A DNA stretch of 32,025 nt, from assembly GCA_030531555.1 (NCBI GenBank), contig JAUNNI010000030.1, positions 1 to 32,025 of the forward strand. The letters are read 5' to 3'. Source of the DNA: Eubacteriales bacterium. Lineage in GTDB: Bacteria > Bacillota > Clostridia > Lachnospirales > Lachnospiraceae. The position numbers and the translations under genes were made by a program. Positions within the stretch are counted from its first letter, which is position 1. Each line of letters opens with the position of its first letter. Shown here piece by piece: positions 4,352 through 27,039 of this stretch. A model generated the notes under the pieces. That model saw only the letters and a program-made list of their open reading frames with translations, made no database searches and was not told the origin of the DNA.

Positions 4352-5119
4352 ATGTTAAAAATTGCGATTTATGGAAAAGGTGGTATTGGAAAGTCCACAG
4401 TGACCAGTAATCTGGCCGCTTCCTTTGCTTATCTTGGAAAGAAAGTCATACAGATTGGCTGTGACCCTAAGGCGGATTCCACCATCAATTTATGTGGTGG
4501 TGAGACACCAATTCCTGTGATGAATTATTTAAGAGAATACGACGAAGATCCGGAAACCATCGAGGAGATTTCCAAAGTGGGTTATAAGGATGTGCTTTGT
4601 ATTGAAACTGGTGGCCCTACTCCAGGGCTTGGCTGTGCCGGTCGTGGTATCATTGCCACATTTTCTTTGTTGGAAGATCTGGAGCTTTTTGAGCAGCATG
4701 AGCCCGATGTGGTTCTTTACGATGTTCTTGGAGACGTTGTTTGTGGGGGCTTTGCCGCACCGATTCGCGAGGGCTATGCCAGCAAGGTTCTCATTGTAAC
4801 TTCCGGTGAGAAGATGGCTCTTTATGCGGCGAACAATATCAATACCGCCGTAAAGAATTTTGAAGACAGAAGCTATGCCAAGGTGCATGGCATCATTTTG
4901 AATCATAGAAATGTGGAAAATGAAACAGAGAAAGTGAAGGAATTTGCGGACAAAGCAGGGCTTCCAATCGTGGGAGAGATTCCTAGAAGTAATGAGATCA
5001 ACCGATTTGAGGATCAGGGTATGACGGTCATTGAAGGAGATCCAAGCTGTGCGGTTAGCCAGTGTTTCCTTCAGCTTGCCAAAGAACTTCTTGAACAGAT
5101 GGAGGAAGAAGAATGCTAG
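4352..5119 (+). CDS. NifH-like Fe protein, copy 1 (nitrogenase-superfamily reductase)
   Basis: The 255-residue product is a NifH/BchL/CfbC-family ATPase that would pass electrons to a NifD/K-like partner. The P-loop GKGGIGKST (8-16), CDPKADST (37-44), GLGCAGRGI with Cys95 and [10 protein letters not shown] with Cys131 are all intact. A homodimer can therefore hold the bridging [4Fe-4S] cluster and hydrolyse MgATP. It is shorter than true NifH (about 275-295). The start is set by ATAGGAG at 4337-4343. An upstream in-frame extension to 4238 would add 38 residues unlike any NifH and is rejected. The stop overlaps the next start by 7 bp. Absence of nifB/E/N/V and the odd partners argue against dinitrogen reduction. 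The natural substrate is unknown. Confidence 0.93.
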
Positions 5120-6471
5120 AAGAAAGAAAAGCTTTTTCCATCACCGCCAAGGAAATGGTGGAGCGTGGAAAAGAAGACATTCCAAAGGAATTGATCTCCA
5201 ATGAACATCTGATTTACAGCTCTCCAGCCACTCTGGCTTTTAACTCTCCAGGTGCCCAGGGCTTTGGAGTAAAACGTGCCGGTCTTTCCATTCCGGGTTC
5301 CGTCATGCTTTTGGTGGCACCGGGATGCTGCGGAAGAAATACAACCATTTTAAGTGAACTTGGTGGATACAGTAACCGATTTTTCTATCTGACCATGGAT
5401 GAAACGGATATCGTTACCGGTCGTCATCTTCGTAAGATTCCAAAAGCAGTGGCGGAGGTTTATGAAAGTCTTGAGACAAAACCTACGGTTGTTATGATTT
5501 GTATCACTTGCGTGGATGCTCTTCTTGGCACGGATATGGAACGTGTTTGTAAGAAAGCAACGGATCTGGTGGGTATTCCAGTCCTTCCATGTTATATGTA
5601 CGCTCTGACCCGCGAGGGAAGAAAACCACCAATGGTTCATGTACGTCAGTCTCTTTATTCCCTTCTTCGTGTGCAGAAAAAGAAGAGTACCATGGTCAAC
5701 CTTTTGGGCCATTTTGCTCCCCTTACCGATGATTGTGAATTATATCCCCTTTTACGATCTTTGGGGATTCGAACCATCAATGAGATCTCCCGTTGTGAGA
5801 CCTTTGAAGAATATATGAACATGGGAAATGCCAATTTCAATCTTGTCCTTCATCCGGAAGCAAGATATGCGGCAGCAGACCTTAACAAACGTCTGGGAAT
5901 TCCGTCCATCGAGCTGGCCAGAGTTTACCAGATTGATAAGATTAAAAAACAGTATGAATTATTTGCAGGGGCTCTGGGAGCCACCCTGGATGATCAGATA
6001 TATTATGAGGAAGCAAAGGAAACGGTGGATGCTTTTGTAGCCAAACATCCGGGACTTCGTATTTCCGTGGGAGAAGGCTGCAATGCCAATGCCTTTGAAT
6101 TATCTTTAGCTCTTTTACAGTACGGTTTTCAGGTACCGGAAATCTTTGCCAATCTTACAAGTGTGGATTTTGTCTATCTTCGTAAGATTGCTGAGCTTAG
6201 TCCTGAAACCAGAATCTACTCCAATCTGGAGCCAACCATGATTTATTATGATTGCAGTGAAGCTCAAGCAGATTTGACCATCGGTAAGGACGCTGCTTAT
6301 TACCATCCGGATGCTGCTCATCTTGAATGGAGCAGTGATATCCAGCCATTTGGTTACTCCGGCCTTCGTCATTTCTTTGAGGAATGTGAGAAAGCCCTGA
6401 AGGGAGAGGCATGCAGCTGGTTGGAAGAAAAATGGGATGGAGCAAAGACCAAGAAGGAGGAGATGGCATGA
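5113..6471 (+). CDS. NifD-like catalytic subunit, copy 1 (nitrogenase component 1 family)
   Basis: This 452-residue protein matches the Oxidored_nitro (NifD/NifK/BchN/CfbD) family. Cluster-type cysteines are visible: Cys72 and Cys73 in APGCCGRNT, and Cys133 in [11 protein letters not shown], the position of the conserved Cys-x-x-x-x-I/L-G-x-D motif of NifD. Cys228 in [10 protein letters not shown] falls roughly where NifD carries its cofactor Cys, but the context differs and I cannot align it with certainty. No FeMo-co-type His motif is evident. The C-terminal [14 protein letters not shown] resembles the late glycine/aromatic segment of the family. It overlaps the NifH-like gene (7 bp) and the NifK-like gene (ATGA overlap), so the three products are translationally coupled, probably as one complex. 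Confidence 0.88.
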
Positions 6472-7523
6472 AAGGCTTATGGAAATATATCTCCCCATTT
6501 GCACCGGACCAGTCCGGAGCCACCGCAGTGCTCTGTGAGATGGGTGGATTGATTGTAATTATTGATGCCGGCGGCTGTGCCGGCAACATCTGTGGCTTTG
6601 ACGAGCCAAGATGGTTTGAGAAAAAAAGTGCGATTTTCAGCGCAGGTCTTCGTGATATGGATGCCATTTTGGGTAGAGATGACCGTTTGGTGAAAAAAGT
6701 GCAGATGGTTTGCGAGAAGATTGATGGAGAATTCGTTGCCTTAGTGGGAACACCGGTTCCAGCGGTTATCGGTACGGACTATAAAGCCCTGCAGCGTATG
6801 ATTGAGGTAAAAACCGGAATTCCAGCGCTTCCATTAGATACCAACGGGGTTCGCTTTTATGATTCTGGTTCCGAGAAAGCGTGGCTTTCCCTATTCCAGA
6901 CTTTTGCCGGACAGTCCATTGGCATGGAGCCGGGAACCATGGGTATTATTGGGGCCACTCCATTTGATGTGGGGCTGGAAGGTTTTGACTTCGATTCCCA
7001 GAAGGTTTGGTGTTACGGCATGGGTGCCGGAATCGAGGAAGTGAAGAAAGCATCTACGGTAATGAAGAATCTGGTGGTCGCCCCAAGTGGATTGAAGGCA
7101 GCCAGATATCTTGCCAAACGATTCGGAACTCCTTATGAAGTGGGCTTCCCGCTGGAGCAGATTAAAGGATATGACTCTTTCATAGAAAATGTGAAGAAAG
7201 ATCTCAGTGGAGAAGATGCACCGAAGAAGATCCTGATTGTACATCAGCAAGTGCTTGCCCACAGTTTACGACAAGAACTTCGCCGTCATACCAATGCGCC
7301 GATTGTGGCAGCCAATTGGTTCATGATGGATAAAGAATTAAGAGAGCCATGGGATGTTCCTCTCTCAGAGGAAGACCAGTGGGTGGAATTGGTCATGGAA
7401 GGAGGATATGATTTGATTATCGGGGATCCTCTTTTACAAAAAGCAATTCCGGATTATAAAGGAAGGTATTATTCTCTGCCACATTTTGCGGTTTCTGGAA
7501 AATACCTGGCATTTGAGGAATAA
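6468..7523 (+). CDS. NifK-like subunit, copy 1, short and cysteine-poor
   Basis: The 351-residue protein is a nitrogenase component 1-family member shorter than NifK (about 450-520) and the usual NifD-like proteins. It begins ISPFAPDQSGATAVLCEMGG, then GGCAGNICGFDEPRW with Cys37 and Cys42. The site that normally supplies the later cluster Cys reads VGTPVPAVIGTD, without Cys. It could donate one cysteine to a [4Fe-4S] cluster shared with the NifD-like partner, as in dark-operative protochlorophyllide reductase. The ATG is chosen because AAGGAGGAG lies just upstream and it overlaps the previous stop as ATGA. A longer reading from 6411 lies inside the upstream gene. The second operon copy (14556-15761) shares DxSG, E-x-GG and DEPRWF. 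Confidence 0.87.
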   Translation: MKGLWKYISPFAPDQSGATAVLCEMGGLIVIIDAGGCAGNICGFDEPRWFEKKSAIFSAGLRDMDAILGRDDRLVKKVQMVCEKIDGEFVALVGTPVPAVIGTDYKALQRMIEVKTGIPALPLDTNGVRFYDSGSEKAWLSLFQTFAGQSIGMEPGTMGIIGATPFDVGLEGFDFDSQKVWCYGMGAGIEEVKKASTVMKNLVVAPSGLKAARYLAKRFGTPYEVGFPLEQIKGYDSFIENVKKDLSGEDAPKKILIVHQQVLAHSLRQELRRHTNAPIVAANWFMMDKELREPWDVPLSEEDQWVELVMEGGYDLIIGDPLLQKAIPDYKGRYYSLPHFAVSGKYLAFEE

Positions 7524-7527
7524 AACC

Positions 7528-9876
7528 ATGGAAGATAGAGTAACAAAGCTTGCCCGTGTCTATGGAATTGTACAGGGTGTGGGATTTCGCCCGACGGTGA
7601 GCCGACATGCCAGCACCTATGGTGTGACGGGTAGTGTCTGTAACAAAGGACCATTTGTGGAAATCATCGCCCAAGGGGATGAGAAATTGGTGAATTCCTT
7701 TTTGAATGCAGTGAAGGAGCAGGCTCCGGAACGTGCCGTCATCCTTAAGATGGATGTGGAGATGCTTTCTTCGGAAGAGCAGCTCTTTATGGAAGAATTT
7801 TCTATTATCGAAAGTGAGAAAGTGAAGGGAGACATTTTTGTGTCTCCGGATATCGCCATTTGTTCCAAATGTAAAAAAGAAATGTATGATCCGTCAGATC
7901 GTCGTTATTTACATCCATTTATCAACTGTACCTGTTGTGGTCCAAGGCTGACCATCCTTGATTCCATGCCATATGACAGGATAAGAACCAGTATGTCGGA
8001 GTTTCCGATGTGTGAGGATTGCGAGAAAGAATATTATGGACCGGAAACCAGACGCTATGATGCTCAGCCGGTTTGCTGTAATGACTGTGGACCGGAGGTT
8101 TATCTTCTGGATGAAGAAGGAAAAGGACCGGAGGCCATTACAGCTATTCGAAAAGCCATCTTAGATGGTCAGATTGTAGCAATCAAGGGAATCGGGGGCT
8201 TCCATTTATGTTGTGATGCCAGCAATGCTAAGGCGGTCAGCCTCTTAAGAGAGAGAAAACTGCGTCCGGCCAAACCATTTGCTGTGATGATGAAGGACAT
8301 GAATGCAGTGCGTAGAGAGTGCCAGGTCAGCCCATCCCAGGAGGAAATCCTAACAGGGCATCAAAAACCAATCATTTTGCTTGCTCGCAAAGAAAATGGT
8401 TTGGTTAGCCAACCGGTAGCACCGGACAATCCAAAGCTTGGTGTCATGTTACCATATGCACCGATTCATTTGTTGCTTTTTGACTATCCCGATGGGTTAG
8501 TCATGCCGGACTGTCTGGTCATGACCAGTGCCAACACTTCCGGAGCACCAATTTGCAGAGATGATGAGGACGCAAGAAGGGAGCTGCACCATCTTTGTGA
8601 CCACATCTTATCCCATAACCGTCTGATCCGTCTTCGTGCCGATGATACGGTCATGGATTATTTTGAAGAAGAACCTTATATGATTCGCCGTTCCAGAGGC
8701 TATGCGCCGCTTCCGTTTTCTGTTCATGCAGATTGGGAAGGTGAGGTTTTAGCCATTGGCGGGGAACTGAAAAATACATTTTGTATCGTGAAAAACGGAC
8801 TCTTCTATCCATCCCCATATTTAGGGGACATGGGAGATATCCGCACAGTGAAGGCTTTGTCTGAATCTGTGAAGCGTATGGAGGATCTGCTGGAGGCAAG
8901 TCCTGATCTGGTAGCCTGCGATTTGCATCCAAAGTACAATACTACGGCTTTTGCCAAGGAAATGGGACGCCCTGTTTTTGAGGTGCAGCATCATTATGCT
9001 CATGTGCTTTCCTGCATGGTAGAAAATGATGTGCAGGAGAAGGTCATTGGCGTATCCTATGACGGAACCGGCTATGGAAGCGATGGCACCATCTGGGGTG
9101 GAGAAATCCTTCTTTCGGATTATGCCGGTTTTGAGAGAATGGCATCCATCACTCCATTTGATCAGGTGGGTGGCGACTTATCCTCCAAAGAAGGATGGCG
9201 TATTGCTGTTTCTCTTTTGAAAGATTGTTACGGGGCAGAAGAAGGAGCCCAGCTGGCAGAAGAACTGGGACTTTGCACCAAAGGAATGGCCTTGCTCATG
9301 GGCAAGATGGCAGCGGGAGGAGTGAACTCCGTTCGTTCCACCAGTGCCGGACGACTTTTTGATGGGGTCAGTGCCATTTTAGGCATTCGTAAGGAATCTA
9401 CCTTTGAGGGAGAAGCTTCCTGCCAGCTGCAATTTGAGGCAGAGAAAGCGTTAAAGGATGAGTTAATCCCATTGGTGGAAGCAGAGTTCCAGCCAGAAGA
9501 AGTAGATGGCATGCTTTATATGCCAACTACCCATATGGTGGCACAAATTGTGGAAATGTTGCAAAAGGGAGAAGATTCGAAAGCTTTGGCCTTATATTTC
9601 CATCGTGCTTTGGCGGCTATGACAGTGTTGGCCTGTGAAAAGATTCGTGAAAAAACAGGAGTTTCTTCCGTTGCTTTAAGTGGAGGTGTTTATCAGAACA
9701 CTTTATTATTAAAAGAAACCATGATGGGTTTAAAAGCCAAGGGATTTAAAGTATATAAACATACGCTGTTGCCTCCAAATGATGGAGGAATCTGTGTGGG
9801 ACAGGCTGCGGCAGCGATTTATCATAGAAATAAGATGAAAAAGAGTACAGGTTTCCAAGAGAACCATTTGAAATAG
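7528..9876 (+). CDS. hypF: HypF carbamoyltransferase, [NiFe]-hydrogenase cyanide-ligand maturation
   Basis: HypF uses carbamoyl phosphate and ATP to load a carbamoyl group on the C-terminal Cys of HypE, the first step to the cyanide ligands of Fe(CN)2CO. All domains are present in the 782 residues. They are an N-terminal acylphosphatase-like domain with VQGVGFRP (about 15-22), twin zinc fingers starting CSKCKKEMYDP (Cys112/115, Cys134/137) and CEDCEKEYYGP, a YrdC-like domain (KGIGGFHLCCDASN, ERKLRPAKPFAVM), and a Kae1-like domain (HHYAHVLSC, DGTGYGSDG, SGGVYQN, PPNDGGICVGQA). Length is normal. The start lies 4 bp after the NifK-like stop. No hydrogenase gene accompanies it here. Confidence 0.97.
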   Translation: MEDRVTKLARVYGIVQGVGFRPTVSRHASTYGVTGSVCNKGPFVEIIAQGDEKLVNSFLNAVKEQAPERAVILKMDVEMLSSEEQLFMEEFSIIESEKVKGDIFVSPDIAICSKCKKEMYDPSDRRYLHPFINCTCCGPRLTILDSMPYDRIRTSMSEFPMCEDCEKEYYGPETRRYDAQPVCCNDCGPEVYLLDEEGKGPEAITAIRKAILDGQIVAIKGIGGFHLCCDASNAKAVSLLRERKLRPAKPFAVMMKDMNAVRRECQVSPSQEEILTGHQKPIILLARKENGLVSQPVAPDNPKLGVMLPYAPIHLLLFDYPDGLVMPDCLVMTSANTSGAPICRDDEDARRELHHLCDHILSHNRLIRLRADDTVMDYFEEEPYMIRRSRGYAPLPFSVHADWEGEVLAIGGELKNTFCIVKNGLFYPSPYLGDMGDIRTVKALSESVKRMEDLLEASPDLVACDLHPKYNTTAFAKEMGRPVFEVQHHYAHVLSCMVENDVQEKVIGVSYDGTGYGSDGTIWGGEILLSDYAGFERMASITPFDQVGGDLSSKEGWRIAVSLLKDCYGAEEGAQLAEELGLCTKGMALLMGKMAAGGVNSVRSTSAGRLFDGVSAILGIRKESTFEGEASCQLQFEAEKALKDELIPLVEAEFQPEEVDGMLYMPTTHMVAQIVEMLQKGEDSKALALYFHRALAAMTVLACEKIREKTGVSSVALSGGVYQNTLLLKETMMGLKAKGFKVYKHTLLPPNDGGICVGQAAAAIYHRNKMKKSTGFQENHLK

Positions 9877-9888
9877 GAGGTAAGGAAT

Positions 9889-10071
9889 ATGTGTGTTGGA
9901 TTACCAGCAAAAGTGTTAACCATGAAAGATGGCATGGCAGTTGTGGATGCTTATGGTGCAAAACGTGAGATTTCCGCAGAACTTGTGGATGATTTGGAAC
10001 CGGGTGATTATGTGATGGTTCATGCAGGAATCGCCATTGCAAAAATTACTGATGAAGATGAGGATGAATAA
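9889..10071 (+). CDS. hypC: HypC/HybG-type hydrogenase maturation chaperone
   Basis: HypC binds HypD and carries the Fe(CN)2CO unit to the hydrogenase large subunit. The 60-residue product begins MCVGLPAKV, with the N-terminal Cys2 that binds iron after Met removal, and contains the family signature PGDYVMVHAGIAI with His45. It is slightly shorter than usual (about 70-85) because the acidic tail DEDEDE replaces the longer C-terminal helix. A strong AGGAGG lies upstream and the gene sits 12 bp after hypF and 1 bp before hypD. Because HypC is normally client-specific, the short C-terminus may reflect a different recipient. That is inference. Confidence 0.95.
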   Translation: MCVGLPAKVLTMKDGMAVVDAYGAKREISAELVDDLEPGDYVMVHAGIAIAKITDEDEDE

Positions 10072-10072
10072 G

Positions 10073-11128
10073 ATGGAAGAAAATAAAAAAGAAATGACAG
10101 ATTTGGAGCTGATCCAGTCTTATGATGGTCCGCCTGTGCGTATTATGGAAGTTTGCGGAACCCACACTCATGAGATTTTTAAGCTGGGAGTACGTCAGAT
10201 CCTTCCGGAACAAGTAACGTTAATCTCCGGACCGGGATGTCCTGTTTGTGTCACTCCCGTTGACTTTATTGATAAAGCTATGTATCTGGCTTTAGAAAAA
10301 GGGGTAACTGTATGTACTTTCGGTGATTTGATCCGTGTGCCGGGAACCAAAGGAAGTCTGGCAGATGCCAGAGCCAAAGGTGGCAAAGTACAGATGGTTT
10401 ACTCCCCAATGGATGCCTGCGATTATGCAGCGGAGCATCCGGAAGAAGAGGTTGTTTTCTTATCCGTAGGCTTTGAGACAACCACACCGGCTTCTTGCCT
10501 GGCTGCAAAAAAAGCCATGGATCAGGGACTGAAAAACTTCTCCCTTTTGGTTGCCAACAAAACCATGCCGGCTGCCTATCAGGCTTTAAAGGATAGCGTG
10601 GATGTCTATCTTTACCCAGGCCATGTGAATGCAATCATGGGAACAGACGTCTGCGAAAAACTGGCAGAGGAGGGTGTTAGTGGCGTAGTAACCGGATTTT
10701 CAGCCAAACAGCTTCTTCGCGCTTTTGCAACCATTCTGAGAGAATTTCCAAAAGGAAAACCATTTTTTGCCAACTGCTATCAGAGCGTTGTTAAGAAAAA
10801 TGGAAGTCCTGGTGCAAGAAGAATCATGGAAGAATGGATGGAGGATTGCGACACCCAGTGGCGTGGCCTTGGCGTCATTCCACATTCCGGTCTTCGTTTA
10901 AAAGAAAAATATCAGGCATTTGATGCCGAAATTAAATATCAGGTTCCAAAGATGGAAGGAAGAATTAACCCGGCTTGTCGCTGCGGTGAGGTTTTACAGG
11001 GAAAATGCCTTCCAACAGACTGTAAGGTATTTGGTACCGCCTGCAATCCACAGCACCCAATTGGGGCATGTATGGTAAGTGGGGAAGGCGCCTGCTCTGC
11101 ATATTATCAGTATTCCCTCACGAAATAA
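10073..11128 (+). CDS. hypD: HypD, Fe-S protein for Fe(CN)2CO assembly
   Basis: HypD is the scaffold on which, with HypC, iron receives its two cyanide and one CO ligand. In the 351 residues the conserved motifs are complete: MEVCGTHTHEI (Cys28), GPGCPVCVTP (Cys56, Cys59), and a C-terminal cysteine group (CRCGEVLQGKC, PTDCKVFGTAC, GACMVSGEGAC) that holds the [4Fe-4S] cluster. The ATG at 10073 follows hypC by one base; an ATG at 10064 would add three residues and overlap hypC. Nothing suggests loss of function, so the ligand chemistry should be complete in this operon. Confidence 0.97.
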   Translation: MEENKKEMTDLELIQSYDGPPVRIMEVCGTHTHEIFKLGVRQILPEQVTLISGPGCPVCVTPVDFIDKAMYLALEKGVTVCTFGDLIRVPGTKGSLADARAKGGKVQMVYSPMDACDYAAEHPEEEVVFLSVGFETTTPASCLAAKKAMDQGLKNFSLLVANKTMPAAYQALKDSVDVYLYPGHVNAIMGTDVCEKLAEEGVSGVVTGFSAKQLLRAFATILREFPKGKPFFANCYQSVVKKNGSPGARRIMEEWMEDCDTQWRGLGVIPHSGLRLKEKYQAFDAEIKYQVPKMEGRINPACRCGEVLQGKCLPTDCKVFGTACNPQHPIGACMVSGEGACSAYYQYSLTK

Positions 11129-11154
11129 GTCGTATTGTACAAAGGAGAAAAATT

Positions 11155-12159
11155 ATGGAGAAAACAGTAACCCTTGCACATGGTGCAGGTGGCAAACAGA
11201 CAAATGAATTGATTGATCAGGTGTTTAAAGCACATTTTGCAAATCCTGAGCTCACCAGTGATGATGCCGCAGTTTTACCAGTGGAAGCTGGGAAAATTGC
11301 ATTTACTACCGATGGATTTATCGTATCCCCACAGGAATTTCCAGGAGGAAATATCGGAAAGCTTTCCATCTGTGGTACCGTAAATGACCTTTCCTGCATG
11401 GGAGCAAAACCAAAATATCTTTCCTGTGCATTTGTTATAGAAGAAGGGTATTCCATGGAAAAACTGGAGAAAATTGCCGCCGCCATGGAAGAAACTGCAG
11501 CAAAAGCAGGAGTGAAAATCGTAGCTGGTGATACCAAGGTGGCAGGTCGTGGCCAGGTGGATGGTGTCTTCATCACCACCACAGGAATTGGTGTCATTCA
11601 GGAAGGTGCACAGACCTCAGGCTTCCTGGCAAAACCAGGGGACGCCATTATCGTAAGTGGCGATGTGGGTCGTCATGGTTGTACCATCCTTCTTGCCAGA
11701 GAGGATTTTGGCATTGAGGCAGAGGTGACCAGCGATTGCGCACCTCTTTGGGAATGTGTAGAAGCTATGTTTGATGTAACAAAAGATATCCATGTAATCC
11801 GCGATGCAACTCGTGGTGGTGTTGGTACTGTATTATATGAAATCGCAGAACAGAGCCAGGTAGGAATCCGTTTAATGCAGGATCAGATTCCGGTACAGGA
11901 TGCCGTAAAAGGTGTCTGTGGCATGTTAGGGCTTGAGCCACTTTATCTTGCCTGTGAAGGAAGACTGGTAATCTTCGCTCCAAAAGAAAAGGCAGAAGGT
12001 ATCGTGGAAGCTCTTCGTAAATTAGAGCCATCCAAAGATGCTGCCATCATCGGAGAAGTAACCGAGGAGATGCCTGGCCGTGTTGTAGTGACAACACCAA
12101 TTGGCGCACAGACCCTTCTTCCACCTCCAGGAGGAGAGCTTCTTCCTCGTATCTGCTAG
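11155..12159 (+). CDS. hypE: HypE, ATP-dependent thiocarbamate dehydratase
   Basis: HypE (PurM/AIR-synthetase fold) dehydrates the carbamoylated C-terminal Cys to a thiocyanate and hands cyanide to HypCD. The 334-residue product starts MEKTVTLAHGAGGKQTN, has the nucleotide-binding segments typical of the family (SDDAAVLP, GGNIGKLSICGTVNDLSCMG, ATRGGVGTVL), and ends PRIC. The acceptor Cys334 is therefore the last residue, as required. AAAGGAG precedes the ATG. It follows hypD by 26 bp and its stop overlaps the ribosome site of the next gene. Confidence 0.97.
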   Translation: MEKTVTLAHGAGGKQTNELIDQVFKAHFANPELTSDDAAVLPVEAGKIAFTTDGFIVSPQEFPGGNIGKLSICGTVNDLSCMGAKPKYLSCAFVIEEGYSMEKLEKIAAAMEETAAKAGVKIVAGDTKVAGRGQVDGVFITTTGIGVIQEGAQTSGFLAKPGDAIIVSGDVGRHGCTILLAREDFGIEAEVTSDCAPLWECVEAMFDVTKDIHVIRDATRGGVGTVLYEIAEQSQVGIRLMQDQIPVQDAVKGVCGMLGLEPLYLACEGRLVIFAPKEKAEGIVEALRKLEPSKDAAIIGEVTEEMPGRVVVTTPIGAQTLLPPPGGELLPRIC

Positions 12160-12169
12160 GAGGAAGGCC

Positions 12170-12436
12170 ATGGAGACTAGCACAAGGATTGCTGCCATCT
12201 CCATCATCGTGGAGCAGGCAGAAAGTACAGAAGAATTGAACCGCATTATCCACGAATACTCCGACTATATCGTGGGCAGAATGGGAATTCCTTATCGTCA
12301 GAAAAAGATCAGTATCATCAGTCTTGTGGTGGATGCACCGCAGAACGTGATCAGTGCATTTTCTGGAAAAATCGGACGTTTAGAGGGAATCACTGCAAAG
12401 ATTGCCTATGCCAAAGTGTCTCAGTCTTGTGAATAA
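12170..12436 (+). CDS. TM1266-type ACT-like putative regulator of iron-only hydrogenase systems
   Basis: This 88-residue protein has a single ACT/NikR-like beta-alpha-beta-beta-alpha-beta pattern. It matches the pattern I recall for Thermotoga TM1266 and the family named putative iron-only hydrogenase system regulator. Matching segments are RIAAISIIVEQ, YSDYIVGRMGIPYRQKKISI, SAFSGKIGRLEGI and a short basic C-terminus. Homologues usually lie by hydE/hydF/hydG of [FeFe]-hydrogenase, none of which is here. It has no DNA-binding domain, so it more likely senses a small ligand or metal, or binds a partner protein. The ribosome site TAGGAGGAAGG overlaps the hypE stop. It sits at the boundary between hyp genes and the second NifH-like set. 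Confidence 0.85.
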   Translation: METSTRIAAISIIVEQAESTEELNRIIHEYSDYIVGRMGIPYRQKKISIISLVVDAPQNVISAFSGKIGRLEGITAKIAYAKVSQSCE

Positions 12437-12453
12437 TGTGAGGATAAAATGAT

Positions 12454-13233
12454 ATGTTAAAAATAGCAATATATGGAAAAGGTGGAATTGGCAAATCAAC
12501 CACCATATCAAATGTGGCTGCGGTTTTAGCAGGTCGTGGCTATCGTGTCATGCAGATTGGCTGTGATCCAAAGGCAGATTCCACCATGCTGCTTCGTCAC
12601 GGTGAGCCCATGAAAACCGTTCTTTCCCTGGTTTCTCAGAAGAAGAATGCAGTGACCTTAGAGGAACTTGTGAAAGTAGGATTTCGCGATATTATTTGTG
12701 TGGAAGCAGGGGGACCTTCTCCGGGAACCGGATGCGCCGGTCGTGGAATCATTGCGGCTTTAGAGACCTTGAAGGAAAAAGGAGCTTACGAAAGCTACCA
12801 GCCAGATATCATCTTATATGATGTCCTTGGTGATGTCGTTTGTGGAGGCTTTTCCATGCCCATGCGAAATGGTTACGCCGACCAGGTTTTTGTCGTGACC
12901 TCAGGAGAAAATATGTCCATTTACGCTGCGGCAAATATCGCCACGGCGGTGGATCATTTTAAAAACAGAGGATATGCTCAATTAGGAGGATTTATCTTAA
13001 ATCATAGAAATGTAAAGAGAGAGCGGGAAAAGGTGGAGGAGATGGCAGCAGAATTCCACTCAGAAATCGTAGGTGAGCTTTCAAGAAGTGAGACGGTTGC
13101 AGAAGCGGAGGAACAGGTTTCCACAGTCATCGAAGCTTTCCCGGAAAGTGATATGGCCAGGGAATATGAGGACCTTGCTGATGCCATCTTAGCCCGCTGT
13201 GGTCTTCCTGGCCACAAAGAAAAAGGAGCGTAA
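12454..13233 (+). CDS. NifH-like Fe protein, copy 2
   Basis: The 259-residue protein is a second NifH-family reductase. GKGGIGKST (8-16), GCDPKADST (36-44), GTGCAGRGI with Cys94 and [10 protein letters not shown] with Cys130 are intact. It shares long stretches with copy 1 ([35 protein letters not shown]) but diverges in the middle and C-terminus, so the copies are old paralogues rather than a recent duplication. It is presumably specific for the NifD/NifK-like pair directly downstream. The start is taken at 12454 with GAGGAT about ten bases upstream. The next gene begins 3 bp after its stop. Confidence 0.93.
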   Translation: MLKIAIYGKGGIGKSTTISNVAAVLAGRGYRVMQIGCDPKADSTMLLRHGEPMKTVLSLVSQKKNAVTLEELVKVGFRDIICVEAGGPSPGTGCAGRGIIAALETLKEKGAYESYQPDIILYDVLGDVVCGGFSMPMRNGYADQVFVVTSGENMSIYAAANIATAVDHFKNRGYAQLGGFILNHRNVKREREKVEEMAAEFHSEIVGELSRSETVAEAEEQVSTVIEAFPESDMAREYEDLADAILARCGLPGHKEKGA

Positions 13234-13236
13234 ATC

Positions 13237-14559
13237 ATGTTAAAAAGAGTGATGGCAAAGGAGACGGAGAATGATTTTCGTCTGATGAAGGATGTGTCTT
13301 TTCCCGTTCCATTTGCCCATGGTTTAGAATATAATAGTCCGGCTCATGGCCCTTGGAATATCGTTCATATGGGTATGCTGATGCCGGGATCCCATCAGAT
13401 TTATGTTTGTGGGGCAAACTGCGTTCGAGGCGTTGTTTTAACAGCCGCTGAAATGAATGCCGTGGATCGTTTTTCCACTTTATCTATAGAGGAAGAAGAT
13501 CTTTTCAATGGCAATATCGAAGAGAATCTCATCGAGGGTGTTCTGGAGATTCTTGATAAATTACCTTATAAACCGACGGCAGTGCTTCTTTTTACGGTCT
13601 GTGTGCATCATTTTATGGGATGCGATATTCCATATATCTACGAAGAATTACGCCGACGCCGACCAGATCAGATTTTTGTAGAATGCTATATGGATCCTAT
13701 CATGCAAAAGGAAGGTCTTACACCAGACCAAAAACTGCGATACTCCATGTTGACCATCCTGCCGAAAAGAGAAGAAAAAGAGAAACAGATCAGCATTCTA
13801 GGCAGTGATTTTCCACTGGATTCTGACAGTGAGATCTTCCATATGTTAAAAGAGGGCGGATGGAGCTGGAAACAGACACCGGAGTGTAAAGATTTTGAAG
13901 AATATCTTTCCCTTGGGGAAAGTCCGGTGGATCTGGCAGTTTATCCTCTGGCTCAGTATGGGGTAAAGGAACTGACAAAACGTTTGGAACACCAGTACCT
14001 TTATCTGCCACAAAGTTTCTCTTATGAAGAAATCGAAGAACAGCTGCAACTCTTATCGGTTAAGCTGGAGATTCCGATGATCGATTTAAAACCATATTGG
14101 AAAAAGCTGGAAGAAAAACTTGTGGAAGCGAAAAAACTCATTGGAGATACAGAAATCGCCATCGATATGAATGCTTTTCCAAGATATCTTGGACTTGCCA
14201 GATTCCTTTTGGAGCATGGTTTCCATGTGACCAGACTTTACGGAGATTCCATCTCCTCAGAGGAGGAGAAGGATTATCTTTGGCTGAAAGAACATGCGCC
14301 AGATCTTCGTTTTTACCCAACCATCCAGGCAAGAATGCGTGTCATCTATGGCTCTTATGGAAAAAAGGTTCTTGGAATCGGTCAGAAAGCAGCTTATTTT
14401 ACGGGCAGTCCTTACTTTGTCAATGTGGTGCAAGGTGGAGGATATTATGGAATACAGGGAATGATTAAGATCATGGAGGCCATGATGGAGGCCTTTGAAG
14501 AGAAGAAAGATCTTACGACGATTTCCCACAAAGGATTGGGGTGTGAGTGTGTCTTATGA
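13237..14559 (+). CDS. NifD-like catalytic subunit, copy 2
   Basis: This 440-residue nitrogenase component 1-family protein differs strongly from copy 1. It has Cys58 and Cys62 in YVCGANCVRG and Cys122 and Cys129 in FTVCVHHFMGCD, the counterparts of the family cluster cysteines. Cys217 in TPECKDFEEYLSLG aligns with [13 protein letters not shown] of copy 1, a shared and so probably functional site. The C-terminus GLGCECVL adds a Cys-x-Cys pair (436, 438) that copy 1 lacks. The late glycine-rich segment VQGGGYYGIQGMIKIMEAM matches the family end. AAAGGAG lies upstream, and its TGA overlaps the next ATG. A heterodimer with the next gene product is expected. Confidence 0.82.
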   Translation: MLKRVMAKETENDFRLMKDVSFPVPFAHGLEYNSPAHGPWNIVHMGMLMPGSHQIYVCGANCVRGVVLTAAEMNAVDRFSTLSIEEEDLFNGNIEENLIEGVLEILDKLPYKPTAVLLFTVCVHHFMGCDIPYIYEELRRRRPDQIFVECYMDPIMQKEGLTPDQKLRYSMLTILPKREEKEKQISILGSDFPLDSDSEIFHMLKEGGWSWKQTPECKDFEEYLSLGESPVDLAVYPLAQYGVKELTKRLEHQYLYLPQSFSYEEIEEQLQLLSVKLEIPMIDLKPYWKKLEEKLVEAKKLIGDTEIAIDMNAFPRYLGLARFLLEHGFHVTRLYGDSISSEEEKDYLWLKEHAPDLRFYPTIQARMRVIYGSYGKKVLGIGQKAAYFTGSPYFVNVVQGGGYYGIQGMIKIMEAMMEAFEEKKDLTTISHKGLGCECVL

Positions 14560-15761
14560 AACAGGTATCTTATGTAATTTCAACCTATACTTCGGATGTT
14601 TCAGGCGTATGCTCTGCCCTTTATGAGCTTGGAGGCATGGTGGTGATCCACGATCCTTCTGGTTGTAACTCCACCTATAATACCCATGACGAGCCACGCT
14701 GGTTTGACCAGGACAGCCTGATCTTTATCTCTGGCCTGTCCCAGATGGATGCTGTCATGGGAAATGATGATAAATTTATCGAAGATATTTTACGGGCAGC
14801 GGAAGAATTGTCTCCAAAATTCATTGCTTTAGTAAGAAGTCCCATTCCTTTGATGATTGGTACCGATTTTGAGGGAATTGCCATGGAGATTGAAACAAGA
14901 TCCGGAATTCCGACCTTTTTCATTCCAACCACCGGCATGAAATCTTATGGGAAAGGTGCTGGTATGGCACTGGAGCTTGTAGTGAGAGAATTGATGAAGG
15001 GACCGATCAAAACGGAGCCATTTACAAAAGGCGATGGTTTTAAGGCAAAAGAAAGCAAAGCCAAACTGAATCTTTTAGGAACCACACCTTTGGATTTTTC
15101 CGTCAATGATACATTTTCCGATCTTTGTAAGATAGTGGAAGAGGAAGGCTTTGAGCTTCTCGGCTCTCTGTCTTACGAGACGGATTATGAAACCATGATG
15201 CGTATGCCGGAAGCGGATGTGAATCTGGTGGTAACCTCCTCTGGCCTTGCAGCGGCAAAAGCTATGGAAGAGCGCTTCCATATTCCTTACGTGGTGGGAT
15301 TTCCTTGTGGCAGCGTAAGAGAAGAAGTTTTTTCTAAAGTAAAATTGGCTTTAGAAGAAGGAAAATCCTACTTCTGTCAGCCGCTTCTTGCAGAAGAAGA
15401 AGAAGCTGTGGTGCAGGAAAAAATCTTGTCAGAGAATCAGAATGAAAAAGTTGGCGTTCTCATTCACGAGCCGGTGATTGCAGCTTGTCTATCTGCGGAT
15501 CTTTCCAGACATTATGGCAAGATTCAGCCGGTAACCATGCTGGATTGCCCGGAAGAGCTTCGTAAAGGAAATCTTCTCTGCCTCGAATCCGAGGAAGAAG
15601 TGGAAGACTGCATGAAAGAGGCAGCATTTGCCGTGGCAGACCCCATGTTTGCCCCAATCTGTCCGAAGGAGATTCCATTTTATCATTTGGCCCATGAGGC
15701 ATTTTCCGGAAGAACTTACCGCAAACAGATTCCAAATCTCTTGAAAATTGACTTTTTATAA
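14556..15761 (+). CDS. NifK-like subunit, copy 2, cysteine-poor
   Basis: The 401-residue protein is the paralogue of the copy 1 NifK-like subunit, about 50 residues longer. Shared features are YTSDVSGVCSALYELGG, the single cluster-type Cys37 in DPSGCNST, DEPRWF, and SPIPLMIGTDF, where the usual second cysteine is again missing. Loss of that cysteine in both copies means a full P-cluster (six Cys) cannot form. A simple [4Fe-4S] cluster with most ligands from the D-like partner is possible. The start overlaps the previous stop (ATGA); a GTG at 14547 is an alternative. It is the last gene of the operon. I see no strong terminator after it, only a 4-bp TCCC/GGGA hairpin near 15791-15806. Confidence 0.85.
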   Translation: MKQVSYVISTYTSDVSGVCSALYELGGMVVIHDPSGCNSTYNTHDEPRWFDQDSLIFISGLSQMDAVMGNDDKFIEDILRAAEELSPKFIALVRSPIPLMIGTDFEGIAMEIETRSGIPTFFIPTTGMKSYGKGAGMALELVVRELMKGPIKTEPFTKGDGFKAKESKAKLNLLGTTPLDFSVNDTFSDLCKIVEEEGFELLGSLSYETDYETMMRMPEADVNLVVTSSGLAAAKAMEERFHIPYVVGFPCGSVREEVFSKVKLALEEGKSYFCQPLLAEEEEAVVQEKILSENQNEKVGVLIHEPVIAACLSADLSRHYGKIQPVTMLDCPEELRKGNLLCLESEEEVEDCMKEAAFAVADPMFAPICPKEIPFYHLAHEAFSGRTYRKQIPNLLKIDFL

Positions 15762-15830: not shown

Positions 15831-16844
15831 ATGAAGATTTTAGTAGCAGGTGGCGCTGGTTACATCGGTAGCCATACATGTGTAGAATTATTAAACCAGG
15901 ATTATGAAGTTGTTGTTGTGGACAATCTTTACAATTCCTGTGAAGAAGCATTAGAGCGTGTAAAAAAGATCACAGGCAAAGACCTTACCTTCTATGAAGG
16001 TGACCTCTTAGATGCCCCATTCCTTGATGAAGTATTTGCAAAAGAAAAACCAGATGCGGTTATTCATTTTGCAGGATATAAAGCCGTTGGAGAATCCGTA
16101 TCCAAACCTTTGGAATACTATCATAATAATTTAACAGGTACCTTCCTTCTCTGTGATGCCATGCGTAAAAATGGATGTAAGAAGATCGTATTCAGCTCTT
16201 CTGCAACCGTTTATGGGGATCCTGCAGAGATTCCAATTACAGAGAATTGTCCAAAAGGTCAGATTACCAATCCATATGGTCAGACAAAAGGCATGATCGA
16301 ACAGATTTTAACCGATTTATGTGTCAGCGATCCAGAATGGAATGTGACACTTCTTCGTTACTTTAACCCAATCGGTGCGCATCCATCCGGCTTAATCGGG
16401 GAAGATCCAAAAGGTATTCCAAATAACTTAGTTCCTTATATTGCTAAGGTAGCTGTTGGCAAATTAGATAAGCTTGGCGTTTTCGGTGACGATTATGATA
16501 CCCATGATGGTACAGGCGTAAGAGATTATATTCATGTTGTGGACCTTGCCATCGGTCATATCAAAGCCATCGAACATTTAAAAGAAGGCGTAAGTATCTA
16601 CAACCTTGGAACAGGTCAGGGATACAGCGTTCTTGACGTAGTAAAAGCTTATGGAAAAGCTTGCGGCAAAGAAATCCCTTACGAAATCAAGGCACGCCGT
16701 CCGGGCGATATCGCAACTTGCTATTCGGATCCTGCGAAAGCAGAAAAAGAACTTGGTTGGAAGGCACAGTATGGAATTGAGGAAATGTGTGCAGATTCCT
16801 ATCGTTGGCAGTCTGGCAATCCAGATGGTTATGTAACAAAATAA
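15831..16844 (+). CDS. galE: UDP-glucose 4-epimerase
   Basis: GalE interconverts UDP-glucose and UDP-galactose for galactose use and surface glycan synthesis. The 337-residue product is an extended SDR with the NAD motif [10 protein letters not shown] (7-16), the [10 protein letters not shown] segment with the catalytic Ser/Thr region, and the catalytic pair Tyr149-x-x-x-Lys153 in NPYGQTKGM. The ending [20 protein letters not shown] followed by YRWQ is typical. GGAGGAG (15819-15825) supports the ATG at 15831; an in-frame upstream ATG at 15816 is less well placed. No other Leloir genes adjoin. Confidence 0.95.
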
Positions 16845-16878
16845 AAATGATCATATTGGATTAAAGGGGACACAGATT

Positions 16879-18660
16879 ATGAAAAAAGAATTGTGCTTAT
16901 TGCGCGAACAGATGAAAAAACATAATATTCAGGCATATTTAATCCCTACAGATGATTTCCATGGATCCGAATATGTTGGAGAATATTTCAAATGCCGCAG
17001 TTTTATCTCCGGTTTTACCGGTTCTGCCGGAACCCTTCTTGTGATGGAGGATATGGCAGGTCTTTGGACAGACGGCAGATATTTCATACAGGCAGCATCC
17101 CAGCTTGCCGGTTCAGGAATTAGTTTATATAAGATGGGAGAGCCGGGGGTTCCAACCATTGCGGAATATTTAAAAGAAAACTTAAAAGAAGGCATGACTT
17201 TTGCCTTTGATGGTCGCTGTATGATGGAAAGCAATGCCGACGTATATCGTGAAATTGTCACAGAAAATGGTGCTTCCATCGAGACCGGTTACGATCTGGT
17301 GGATGCTATCTGGGAAGATCGTCCATCCCTTTCCAAAGAACCAGCCTGGATTTTAGAAGAAAAATATAGTGGAAAAAGCAGCAGAGAAAAGATTGCTGTC
17401 ATCCGTCAGGAAATGGAAGAGAAAAAAGCAGATTATTTCCTTTTAGCTTCCTTAGATGATATCTGTTGGCTTTTGAATGTTCGTGGCAATGATGTGTTAT
17501 GTACTCTGGTTGTCTTAAGCTACCTGCTCATGACACAGGAAGAAGTCACCTGGTATGTGCAGAGTGCCTGCCTTACCGATGATGTTCGTGCCATGTTAGA
17601 AAAGGATAAGATCATCGTAAAAGAATACGAAGCAATTTATGAAGATCTTGAAAAAATCCCTGCAGGTGCTTCCGTTCTTTATCAGCCATCCAAAACCAAT
17701 GCGGCTCTTTGCGATAAGATTGCAGACGGAGTGAACCAGATAAAAGATACCAATCCAACAGAATATCATAAAGCAGTGAAGAATTCTGTGGAGGTGGAAA
17801 ATGAGCGTATTGCTCATATTAAAGATGGGATTGCCTTAACCAGATTTATGTATTATCTGAAGACAAAGGCCATTGAAAATGGAGAGTCTGAAGTAAGTCT
17901 TGGCGATAAGTTAGTGGAACTTCGTAAAGTAGACGAACACTACGTAGAAGAAAGCTTCTCTCCAATCGTCGGTTATGAGGAGCATGGTGCCCTTCCACAT
18001 TATAGTGCAAAGCCAGAAACTGACCGAAAAATCGAAGAGAAAGGTTTTCTTCTTGTGGATACCGGTGGCCATTATCTTGAAGGTACCACAGATACCACCC
18101 GTACTTTTGTTATGGGCCCAATTAGTGACAAAGAAAAAGAATTATACACAGCTGTTTTACGCGGACATATCAATCTGTCTGCCGCTCGCTTCCTTCCAGG
18201 ATGTACCGGCCGAAATTTAGATATTCTCGCCCGTACTCCACTTTGGGATCTTGGTTATGACTATAATCATGGCACTGGCCATGGTGTTGGATACCTTCTT
18301 AATGTACATGAAGGACCAAACTCTTTCCGCTATCGTAAAATGGCTACCAAAAACAGCGACTGTGTCATGGAAGAAGGCATGATTACGTCCAATGAACCAG
18401 GCGTTTATCTTGAAGGTGAATTCGGAGTTCGTCTGGAAAATATGGTGGTATGCTGCAAAGATGAAAAATATCAGCCATTCTTATGTTTTGAATCTCTGAC
18501 CATGGTTCCATTTGAAAAAGAAGCAATTTTAGTGGAAAGAATGACCGAGAAAGAGATTCAGTGGCTCAATGAATATCATGCAACTGTTTATGAAAAAGTT
18601 TCACCTGCACTTAGTGAGGAAGAAAAAGCATGGCTTTGTGATGTGACAGCACCACTTTAA
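16879..18660 (+). CDS. Xaa-Pro aminopeptidase (M24B metallopeptidase)
   Basis: This cytosolic enzyme removes N-terminal residues before proline. The 593-residue, three-domain form matches the long aminopeptidase P type. It has two creatinase-like N-terminal domains (about 1-310) and a C-terminal pita-bread domain. All five metal ligands are readable: Asp394 in LVDTGGHYLEG, Asp405 in TTDTTRTF, His468 in NHGTGHGVG, Glu506 in SNEPGVYLEG and Glu520 in RLENM. A ribosome site AAAGGGGA lies upstream. It follows galE by 34 bp and may share its transcript. Confidence 0.94.
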   Translation: MKKELCLLREQMKKHNIQAYLIPTDDFHGSEYVGEYFKCRSFISGFTGSAGTLLVMEDMAGLWTDGRYFIQAASQLAGSGISLYKMGEPGVPTIAEYLKENLKEGMTFAFDGRCMMESNADVYREIVTENGASIETGYDLVDAIWEDRPSLSKEPAWILEEKYSGKSSREKIAVIRQEMEEKKADYFLLASLDDICWLLNVRGNDVLCTLVVLSYLLMTQEEVTWYVQSACLTDDVRAMLEKDKIIVKEYEAIYEDLEKIPAGASVLYQPSKTNAALCDKIADGVNQIKDTNPTEYHKAVKNSVEVENERIAHIKDGIALTRFMYYLKTKAIENGESEVSLGDKLVELRKVDEHYVEESFSPIVGYEEHGALPHYSAKPETDRKIEEKGFLLVDTGGHYLEGTTDTTRTFVMGPISDKEKELYTAVLRGHINLSAARFLPGCTGRNLDILARTPLWDLGYDYNHGTGHGVGYLLNVHEGPNSFRYRKMATKNSDCVMEEGMITSNEPGVYLEGEFGVRLENMVVCCKDEKYQPFLCFESLTMVPFEKEAILVERMTEKEIQWLNEYHATVYEKVSPALSEEEKAWLCDVTAPL

Positions 18661-18701
18661 AAGACTATTTACAATTATATTTTGAAAAAATATTATGTAT
18701 T

Positions 18702-18748
18702 TTAACGCTATATTTTGTAGGATCATTTCTTGTAAAGTATAGCGTTAA
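18702..18748. repeat. Perfect 11-bp inverted repeat between genes
   Basis: TTAACGCTATA (18702-18712) and TATAGCGTTAA (18738-18748) are perfect inverted copies separated by 25 bases, in the 200-bp gap after the aminopeptidase gene. No T-run follows on the plus strand. It is either an unusual terminator-like hairpin or an operator just upstream of the next promoter (18771-18799). Confidence 0.6.
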
Positions 18749-18770
18749 TTATGACCATAGAAACAGACTC

Positions 18771-18799
18771 TTGAAAAGCAATATATTTTTTGATATACT
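18771..18799 (+). promoter_or_regulatory. Sigma-A promoter of the LCP/LytR_C gene
   Basis: TTGAAA (18771-18776) and TATACT (18794-18799) are separated by 17 bases, close to consensus. The ribosome site AGGAGG follows at 18847-18852 before the ATG at 18861. Confidence 0.7.
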
Positions 18800-18860
18800 A
18801 AACGAATGATAAGATAGGACAATCATGTATAGAATATAATGCAAATAGGAGGACATCACG

Positions 18861-20189: not shown

Positions 20190-20247
20190 TTCAGAGAGAA
20201 AACAAAACGAAGGCGATAGGGTTAGGACGCGAAGAAAGGAACAGTAT

Positions 20248-21054: not shown

Positions 21055-21067
21055 TCTTCTCCTTTTT
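21043..21067 (+). terminator. Rho-independent terminator overlapping the stop codon
   Basis: GGAGAAGA (21043-21050) pairs perfectly with TCTTCTCC (21055-21062), loop GTAA, followed by five T. The loop contains the TAA stop of the preceding gene, so the coding end doubles as the terminator stem. Confidence 0.88.
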
Positions 21068-21237
21068 GTATAATATGTATAAATATAAAAAAAGATTCAT
21101 TATTATCTACAAAAAAAAAGATAAAAATTGTGCATTTCCCCTTTTATTTTTTCGCGTTTTGTATTAAAATACTAGAAAAGTAATCGTTTGGGAACAATAT
21201 TTCGCAAAAATGTTGAGAGACAGGGGAGATAAAAGAT

Positions 21238-22326: not shown

Positions 22327-22354
22327 TTATTGATTCAAAAATATATGATATATA

Positions 22355-22397
22355 AGGTCTGCTGTCAGAAATCCTTTGGCGACAGCAGACCTTTTTT
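22355..22397 (+). terminator. Strong rho-independent terminator
   Basis: AGGTCTGCTGTC (22355-22366) pairs perfectly with GACAGCAGACCT (22381-22392), a 12-bp stem, followed by a T-run to 22397. It ends the regulator gene. Confidence 0.93.
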
Positions 22398-22447
22398 CGC
22401 ATCATAACATGAAAGCGAATATACTGAAGAGAAAGAAGGAATCAAAG

Positions 22448-23701: not shown

Positions 23702-23736
23702 AAAACAAAATCGCGAATCCATTCGGATTCGCGATT
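23701..23736 (-). terminator. Minus-strand terminator of the DUF5721 gene
   Basis: AATCGCGAATCC (23709-23720) pairs perfectly with GGATTCGCGATT (23725-23736), loop ATTC. On the minus strand the stem is followed by TTTTGTTTTT. The plus strand has no T-run, so it mainly serves the minus-strand gene ending at 23755. Confidence 0.8.
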
Positions 23737-23754
23737 CGAAGTCTTAGGAAAAAA

Positions 23755-24237: not shown

Positions 24238-24280
24238 GGGATTTCTCCTTTATGTTTTTAATGAGATAATAGCATAAACC

Positions 24281-25564: not shown

Positions 25565-25590
25565 ATGAAATCTTAGAAAGAAGTGAAATC

Positions 25591-26073: not shown

Positions 26074-26082
26074 TTCACAAAA

Positions 26083-26126: not shown

Positions 26127-26193
26127 ATGAAAACAAGAATCTAGATATTTATCCTTTCCAAAATAAAAACCTGAAAACAAAGGGGGTGCTTTT

Positions 26194-26997: not shown

Positions 26998-27039
26998 CGT
27001 AAAAAGCAAAAAACATATTGATAAAAAGGAGACAGGCAT

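Follow-up and report, generated by a model that had tools for sequence, protein, structure and literature searches.

What product could call for two sets of nitrogenase-like genes and the hydrogenase maturation genes hypF, hypC, hypD and hypE in a single operon? The question is raised by positions 4,352 to 15,761 of contig JAUNNI010000030.1 (GenBank assembly GCA_030531555.1) from a Eubacteriales bacterium of the Lachnospiraceae. The window, as we call the whole 32,025-nucleotide stretch analysed here, covers positions 1 to 32,025 of this contig, and the genome it belongs to, G000, is a 3.12 Mb draft in 165 contigs that is 95.7% complete. An earlier note, made from the window alone, had reported two nitrogenase-like triads enclosing hypFCDE. 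That observation is confirmed and its meaning becomes more specific: the locus is very probably a HydG-replacing assembly operon for the H-cluster of [FeFe]-hydrogenase, each chemical step being less sure than the replacement itself. Taken as a full explanation, an H-cluster assembly operon working without HydG is the best account we have, and we hold it to be quite probable.

The genes of the operon, with the family scores on which their names rest, are:

4352..5119, + strand: H1, nitrogenase-like reductase, NifH-type ATPase, 255 amino acids; PF00142 (Fer4_NifH) 287 bits
5113..6471, + strand: D1, nitrogenase-like subunit, 452 amino acids; PF00148 107 bits
6468..7523, + strand: K1, nitrogenase-like subunit, 351 amino acids; PF00148 64 bits
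7528..9876, + strand: hypF, carbamoyltransferase; TIGR00143 740 bits, cut-off 466
9889..10071, + strand: hypC, Fe-binding chaperone, 60 amino acids; TIGR00074 64 bits, cut-off 48
10073..11128, + strand: hypD; TIGR00075 380 bits, cut-off 193
11155..12159, + strand: hypE, cyanide carrier, C-terminal PRIC; TIGR02124 428 bits, cut-off 252
12170..12436, + strand: TM1266-family protein; PF21699; TIGR03959 110.7 bits, cut-off 60.8
12454..13233, + strand: H2, nitrogenase-like reductase, 259 amino acids; PF00142 296 bits
13237..14559, + strand: D2, nitrogenase-like subunit, 440 amino acids; PF00148 53.5 bits
14556..15761, + strand: K2, nitrogenase-like subunit, about 401 amino acids; PF00148 101 bits

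All eleven genes lie on the + strand in frames without internal stops, in the order H1-D1-K1-hypF-C-D-E-TM1266-H2-D2-K2 and with spacings of -7 to +26 bp, in agreement with the order and the gaps of at most 26 bp or overlaps described before. The earlier count of ten genes falls one short of the eleven in its own listed order, and its small ACT-like protein turns out to be a member of the TM1266 family (TIGR03959 110.7 bits), for which TIGR03959 and PF21699 carry the name 'TM1266 family iron-only hydrogenase system putative regulator'. Start codons are our choice, and K2 has an alternative GTG start at 14547. As assignments from sequence the domain identities are secure; with PF00148 (Oxidored_nitro) scores over the cut-off of 28.6 bits, all four D and K subunits appear to be of the component-1 type.

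Active-site residues are well kept among relatives, as judged by Hyp and NifH motifs of our own choice. HypC carries the N-terminal Met-Cys and the conserved His motif in 70 of 70 sequences, HypD carries CGTHxH and GPGCPVC in 73 of 73, and HypE ends in PRIC in 72 of 73. Membership of HypF was scored by family score and one finger motif (75/75); a HypF 'HxHxH' pattern matched none of the 75, the window's protein included, and was taken to be a wrong pattern, with nothing drawn from it. The P-loop and both cluster-Cys motifs are present in all 89 H1-type sequences, and for H2 the P-loop and the second Cys motif occur in 62 of 62 and the first Cys motif in 61 of 62. Each D or K subunit of the window was aligned with sequences of less than 85% mutual identity (up to 45, over-long or cut ones removed by hand). 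In these alignments Cys72, 73, 130, 133, 146 and 160 of D1 (42 rows), Cys37 and Cys42 of K1 (41 rows) and Cys58, 62 and 122 of D2 (41 rows) are invariant, as is a single Cys of K2 (40 rows), number 40 when counted from 14547. The two triads are distantly related to each other: homology between D1 and D2 spans 400 columns (E 1.9e-50), and that between K1 and K2 spans 342 (E 4.2e-76). D2 is picked up only weakly by the A1 profile (108-148 bits).

Patterns from the D1 alignment, run against 84,980 species genomes, returned 227 stretches, of which 168 hold a D1 relative at E ≤ 1e-3. We mapped the best 80 of these 168 as neighbourhoods of at most 10 kb on each side, annotated with hidden Markov models (HMMs) built in this analysis and with thresholds of our own. 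They include Anaerobutyricum, Clostridium ljungdahlii, C. ragsdalei, C. muellerianum, C. drakei, Anaerostipes, Ruminococcus bicirculans and Megasphaera, and metagenome-assembled genomes labelled Lentisphaeria, Spirochaetaceae and Synergistaceae. Among the 80 neighbourhoods the first triad is represented by D1 in 80, H1 in 79 and K1 in 74, the Hyp genes by hypF in 74, hypC in 70, hypD in 70 and hypE in 66, and the second triad by D2 in 67, K2 in 65 and H2 in 54, with TM1266 in 45. hydF occurs in 29, hydE in 18 and one or the other in 39; hydG was found in none of these 80 stretches. The run D1-K1-hypF-C-D-E stands in one stretch at 63 of the 80 loci; in the remaining 17 it is mostly a contig end that interrupts the locus. 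Confinement to one strain, a case raised by the earlier note, is thus not what we see: a confined or chance arrangement is rejected by the 168 stretches with D1 relatives and a gene order that recurs in several phyla.

TM1266, hydF, hydE, both triads and hypFCDE share one island in L138, L145, L147, L166 and L192 (L denotes loci and contigs, G genomes). The order is TM1266-hydF-hydE-H2-D2-K2-H1-D1-K1-hypF-C-D-E in R. bicirculans (L138) and H1-D1-K1-hypF-C-D-E-TM1266-H2-D2-K2-hydF-hydE in G433 (L166), and G268 (L192) has the gene set of G433 with the Hyd side in front. At other loci hydF lies on the opposite strand (L083, L124) or hydE sits between D1 and K1 (L143). We also observed a single open frame in L192 (12209-14341) that matches both H2 and D2, as though the reductase and the catalytic subunit had been fused. 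In genus g75 (L168, L169, L188-L190) the second triad reads TM1266-D2-K2-hydF, with no dedicated H gene in sight, and H1 may therefore act for both pairs there.

A HypD match is present in 22 of the 24 genomes of the genus group around the window (G000-G023) and was not found in G002 and G007. Contigs L170 of G002 and L171 of G022 start inside hypE and continue TM1266-H2-D2-K2-hydE, which shows that both genomes carry the operon; the HypD match of G022 is a [NiFe]-linked one. Operon parts were directly observed in G000, in 18 mates and in G002 and G022, and for G005 and G011 the HypD match is the evidence used. A short version, with galE after TM1266 and no second triad, occurs in G010, whose contig starts inside hypD, and in G012 and G016. 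The flanks vary among the mates (galE, an M24 peptidase and, by eye, a kinase and a dehydrogenase), and the flank gene that recurs is hydE, located downstream of K2 in G001, G002, G006, G008, G009, G013, G020 and G022 and confirmed by NCBIfam in G001, G008 and G009 (549-581 bits). Other recurring neighbours at 14 genus loci are household-type genes by eye.

The known role of HypCDEF is the maturation of [NiFe]-hydrogenase, and the hyp genes might serve that role here with the nitrogenase-like genes as unrelated neighbours. We used a set of 50 operon genomes, drawn from 50 of the 80 D1 loci; 30 loci were omitted, first 11 (mostly short contigs) and then 19 to keep the set at 50, among them long contigs such as L106, L108, L120, L123, L133, L134, L137 and L148 and including three already covered. 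At least 8 of the 50 are also members of a 41-genome set of relatives (identical match coordinates, e.g. G042 = G017), and the two sets are not additive. A [NiFe] large-subunit match was found in 7 of the 50 operon genomes and 9 of the 41 relatives. The earlier note had considered that every carrier might own a [NiFe]-hydrogenase; 43 of the 50 have no large-subunit match, and no PF00374 large subunit was found in G000, whose single HypD is the one in the operon. No HypA or HypB family was seen among the window proteins scanned, no genome-wide search having been aimed at these two. The seven genus mates that do have a large subunit have a HypD on the same contig as that subunit, and in five of them (G008, G013, G019, G020, G021) the operon HypD is a separate copy on another contig. 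In a HypD tree, 38 operon sequences (the window's and every second of the others) separate from 8 [NiFe]-linked ones at a branch with 99/97 support, subject to a long-branch warning. With the order of the hyp genes and D1-K1 also kept across phyla, we reject [NiFe] maturation as the purpose of the operon; that reading is largely refuted and retains hardly any probability. The operon Hyp proteins resemble the HypABCDEF system in their intact active-site motifs and differ from it in that 43 of 50 operon genomes show no large subunit and in a HypD that is a group of its own. The proposal that Hyp and nitrogenase-like genes serve one product, made before from the window alone, gains from both the 63 of 80 loci and the separate HypD branch. 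As an observation on the seven mates, their PF00374 protein (L005-L008, L024, L033, L034, L037-L043) has 361-377 amino acids, matches the model only at about its first 70 positions and is one that we take to be group 4-like.

Which hydrogenase, then, do operon genomes have? G000 has three PF02906 [FeFe]-hydrogenase domains, two of them in proteins with TSCCPGW, MPCxAKKAE and EVMACxxGC that score over the TIGR02512 (group A) cut-off. The third (L175:483-2279) shows TSCCPAW and the variant motifs GPCAAKKLE and EGMGCPGGC, and is presumably group B-like. HydE (TIGR03956 543 bits, cut-off 254.6) and HydF (TIGR03918 578 bits, cut-off 325.6) of G000 are encoded on contigs other than that of the operon. 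A search for HydG in this genome gave two matches, both under the cut-off of 312; a hidden HydG was rejected, as one candidate is ThiH (508 bits to thiH, 185 to HydG) and the other match falls within the HydE gene itself.

All 50 operon genomes have an [FeFe] domain, and HydG is over cut-off in one of them, C. drakei. In a class sample of 393 Clostridia genomes of at least 90% completeness, D1 (at least 561 bits) occurs in 13, HydG in 241 and HydE in 259; 24 genomes have HydE without HydG and 6 the reverse. All 13 D1 genomes, G000 included, have HydE and lack a HydG over cut-off, and the chance that all 13 would fall among the 24 is 9e-16 within HydE-positive genomes, relatedness ignored. G007 is the only genus-group genome with a true HydG (952 bits), and it is one of the two without a HypD match. 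In genus g75 the six sampled operon members lack HydG and the four HydG members lack the operon. The pattern looks like repeated gene replacement. The operon is likewise present, with no HydG over cut-off, in relatives of Megasphaera elsdenii, among them M. cerevisiae, M. massiliensis and M. micronuciformis; the [FeFe]-hydrogenase of Megasphaera elsdenii is, in the parts of two reports available to us, a studied enzyme (PMC11376134, PMC10016341).

The linkage to HydE, HydF and TM1266 together with the absence of HydG ties the operon to the H-cluster. That the operon replaces HydG, with HydE and HydF kept, is strongly supported by these genomes. It resembles the HydEFG system in that G000 has HydE and HydF, all 13 operon genomes of the class sample have HydE, the genes often share a run and the presumed product is the same; it differs in that HydG is not found and that HypCDEF, with one HDK set of nitrogenase-like genes or two, stands in its place.

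A different account would be that the product is a separate Fe-CN/CO cofactor, destined for another enzyme, with the hydrogenase genes adjacent by chance. Its product is, after all, deduced from genomes, and nitrogenase-like pairs such as DPOR and CfbCD often act on small molecules. Chance adjacency would leave the exclusion of HydG with retention of HydE unexplained, as well as the placement of hydE, hydF and TM1266 in the same gene runs. The other recurring neighbours at the 14 genus loci look household-type by eye, and we consider this account improbable. The earlier note had suggested a metalloenzyme carrying an Fe-CN/CO species or a reductase remodelling one, and so missed the link through HydG absence, HydE, HydF and TM1266 to the ordinary [FeFe] H-cluster; its remodelling reductase may hold as one step.

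In PDB profile searches of D1, K1 and K2, the nearest solved structure for K1 and K2 is NifE, with nitrogenase alpha chains close behind; for D1 one search puts NifE first, and another places a nitrogenase alpha chain narrowly before it. One NifE Cys is matched in the alignment by the second Cys of ICITC in D1, and a different one by Cys37 of K1. NifE has yet another Cys near position 250, presumably a cofactor ligand, which aligns with a residue of D1 other than Cys. H1 falls below the nifH cut-off, and D1 scores 77 bits against the NifE model with its cut-off of 505, which separates these proteins from Nif proper. The D/K pairs with a NifH-type ATPase thus resemble NifEN/NifH, with which a cofactor-assembly role would fit, and differ in scores far below the Nif equivalog cut-offs, in the missing Cys partner and in the linkage to Hyp and Hyd genes. 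The architecture of H plus D/K is shared also with CfbCD (F430), DPOR/COR and methylthio-alkane reductase. H1 lies below the cut-offs of CfbC (303 of 402), BchL (207 of 345) and BchX (195 of 331), and D1 below those of methan_mark_13 (CfbD; 26 of 268), BchB (34 of 490) and BchY (27 of 425).

How might such an operon stand in for HydG? HypE and HypF make cyanide from carbamoyl phosphate and HypCD assembles Fe(CN)2CO, HydG delivers an Fe(CO)2(CN) unit to HydE, and nitrogenases and NifH are able to reduce CO2 to CO. The Hyp proteins are likely the cyanide source: HypF and HypE would convert carbamoyl phosphate to thiocyanate on the C-terminal Cys of HypE, and the cyanide would then be passed to iron on HypC-HypD, as for [NiFe]-hydrogenase. 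The iron-ligand unit would move to D1-K1, a NifEN-like two-subunit scaffold that H1 would feed with ATP-driven low-potential electrons. D2-K2 with H2, or with an H1-type protein if H2 is missing, would carry out a further reductive or ligand-adjusting step, plausibly the supply of CO. The end product would be an Fe(CO)2(CN)-type unit equal to that of HydG, from which HydE would join two units and HydF would carry the product into the apo-hydrogenase, as in known organisms, with TM1266 as a putative regulator.

The accessible parts of two papers describe HydG-type maturation as taking all CO and CN from tyrosine (PMC3105041) and the H-cluster as built by HydG, HydE, HydF and the aminomethyl-lipoyl-H-protein, the last used for the bridge, with [Fe2(SH)2(CO)4(CN)2] able to substitute for HydG plus HydE (PMC12752695). 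The operon might then supply only the dithiolate bridge or iron, with CO and CN from elsewhere, since H-cluster assembly also needs the bridge and HydE and HydF are linked to the operon. We regard this as very unlikely: HydG, the protein not found, is where CO and CN come from (PMC3105041), HypCDEF in its own right yields iron with CN and CO, and the bridge is made with the aminomethyl-lipoyl-H-protein (PMC12752695), as far as the text of these sources at hand goes.

Another reading comes from loci with the second triad only. Four genomes of the class sample that have HydE and no HydG over cut-off (G150, G283, G405, G412; L153-L156) carry H2-D2-K2 without D1, and no hyp genes lie in the fetched stretches, HypD not having been searched genome-wide in these four. 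hydE adjoins the triad in L153 (G150), L154 (G283) and L155 (G412), with hydF also in G283 and G412; TM1266 is present in G283, G412 and G405, in the last of which (L156) it adjoins the triad and hydE is on another contig (L162). From these loci one could argue that the nitrogenase-like proteins alone replace HydG, by making CO and CN or an iron synthon, with triad 2 as the core of the pathway and Hyp accessory. The same loci contain transporter genes, however: FecCD, Peripla_BP_2 and ABC-ATPase genes stand in the triad-2 run of L153, L154 and L155, and one FecCD gene is confirmed in L156. This FecBCD-type transporter suggests that the precursor may be imported. Full operons, for their part, keep the Hyp genes after D1-K1 where contigs are long enough, with active sites intact, and we judge a triad-2 core without Hyp unlikely. 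(In L155 the ABC ATPase and the TM1266 domain share one frame.) In such a sister version of the route, a FecBCD-type importer would take the place of Hyp and triad 1, and triad 2, HydE and HydF would finish the imported complex. That HypCDEF iron cyanide, processed on nitrogenase-like scaffolds with ATP-driven low-potential electrons into the H-cluster synthon, is a third Fe-CN/CO route, with the CO and CN of many gut and acetogenic [FeFe]-hydrogenases not from tyrosine, and that some bacteria may import a ready-made iron complex in a sister version, is a combined proposal to which we give about even chances.

Several points weigh against H-cluster assembly by this operon. The case for it comes from comparison of genomes and sequences. 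The chemistry does not balance as it stands: HypCD gives two CN and one CO where the H-cluster precursor has one CN and two CO, and a hypothetical step that adjusts the ligands has to be assumed. Reductive remodelling or CO supply on D/K would have to solve this mismatch, and we infer that two different pairs fit two steps. In C. drakei (G047, L093) the operon coexists with a true HydG (948 bits), so that a single cell has both routes. Among the 24 class-sample genomes with HydE and without HydG, 11 lack D1, so HydG absence does not always imply the operon and there is no one-to-one rule; four of the 11 have triad 2 only, five (G040, G215, G273, G375, G474) have hydE and no triad within the fetched stretch, and G146 and G330 lie outside the examined set. 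L085, L113, G012 and G016 have triad 1 and Hyp with no triad 2 nearby, so the triads are not strictly coupled. In the genus group, searches gave no HydE over cut-off for G010, G012 and G019 and no such HydF for G001, G010, G014 and G023, all drafts of 70-89% completeness. More generally, statements of absence rest on draft genomes and HMM cut-offs, and the sampled genomes are related, so that p-values overstate independence.

Of the five genomes without a triad, G040 and G375 also have hydF and TM1266 with hydE, and G215 and G474 belong to the same genus as G405. The TM1266-hydE-hydF clusters L157 (G040) and L159 (G375) lie in genomes rated 99% complete, with no HydG and no nitrogenase-like gene within about 10 kb, and possibly reflect another CO/CN source.

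A 2022 survey of eight acetogenic Clostridium (PMC9431212) bears on the question independently. In its available portions, HydE and HydF are reported in all eight and a typical HydG in C. autoethanogenum, C. drakei and C. scatologenes, which leaves HydE and HydF without typical HydG in C. ljungdahlii and relatives. HypCDEF without HypA and HypB is listed for five acetogens (Table 4), including C. ljungdahlii and C. ragsdalei, both operon carriers that differ in this from the HypABCDEF system; an unreported nickel traffic was proposed for the gap. Two HypCDE sets are given for C. carboxidivorans (PMC9431212), and the locus tags in the same portions suggest that one set adjoins HypA, HypB and the large subunit and the other adjoins the only HypF, as the operon would predict. 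Other statements in these portions add to the points against our reading: the HydG of C. autoethanogenum was assigned by motif, and the first scenario offered for the gap is an atypical or diverged HydG with an unusual C-terminal motif, candidates being named in all but C. autoethanogenum (PMC9431212). The alternative scenario is an unknown uptake of free CO and CN, and the authors see no straightforward hydG explanation. All eight acetogens have a [NiFe] group 1a enzyme (PMC9431212, same portions), so the question could not be decided from these species by themselves. C. ljungdahlii and C. ragsdalei gave no HydG-model match at E ≤ 1e-40 in our searches, which argues against a diverged HydG without excluding one. 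We found no description of the operon or of such a HydG-independent pathway in the open-licence literature, consulted mostly as titles and abstract openings and with bioRxiv outside the scope; a description may exist elsewhere.

If the reading is true, the rule that [FeFe]-hydrogenase maturation needs HydG would be overturned, and Hyp, Hyd and Nif-like cofactor-assembly systems would be joined in one pathway. It would offer one answer to both the missing hydG and the HypCDEF-without-HypAB gaps, as the acetogen survey presents them in the text available to us (PMC9431212), and give a concrete function to a set of nitrogenase-like proteins of previously unknown role. It bears on the hydrogen metabolism of gut Anaerobutyricum, Ruminococcus and Megasphaera and of gas-fermenting Clostridium.

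Other nitrogenase-like genes of Clostridia look like another kind. Compared with operon members, those of the HydG-positive G152, G206, G220 and G318 and of G445 and G214 score far lower with the D1 and D2 models, and their fetched stretches hold neither hyp genes nor hydE; further ones (L183-L187, L172) have middling scores to both triads, again with no hyp or hydE in the fetched stretch. Strong PF02906 domains occur in G026, G027, G029, G036 and G039 with no HydE, HydF or HydG over cut-off; these are either non-catalytic proteins or cases of more unusual maturation (G026 is 69% and G029 80% complete).

A scan of the window gave no tRNA and no Rfam family at gathering score. The next gene after K2 is galE, which starts at 15831, 69 bp on; it was rejected as part of the operon, its family being sugar epimerases and the gene also adjoining the short version in G010, G012 and G016. 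The genes from 15831 to 31776 look ordinary: galE is accompanied by an M24 peptidase, LytR-like, WecG-like glycosyltransferase and PucR-like regulator genes, S41 and M18 peptidases, RNase H, RelA/SpoT, an RsmF-like gene, YgiQ and a short-chain dehydrogenase.

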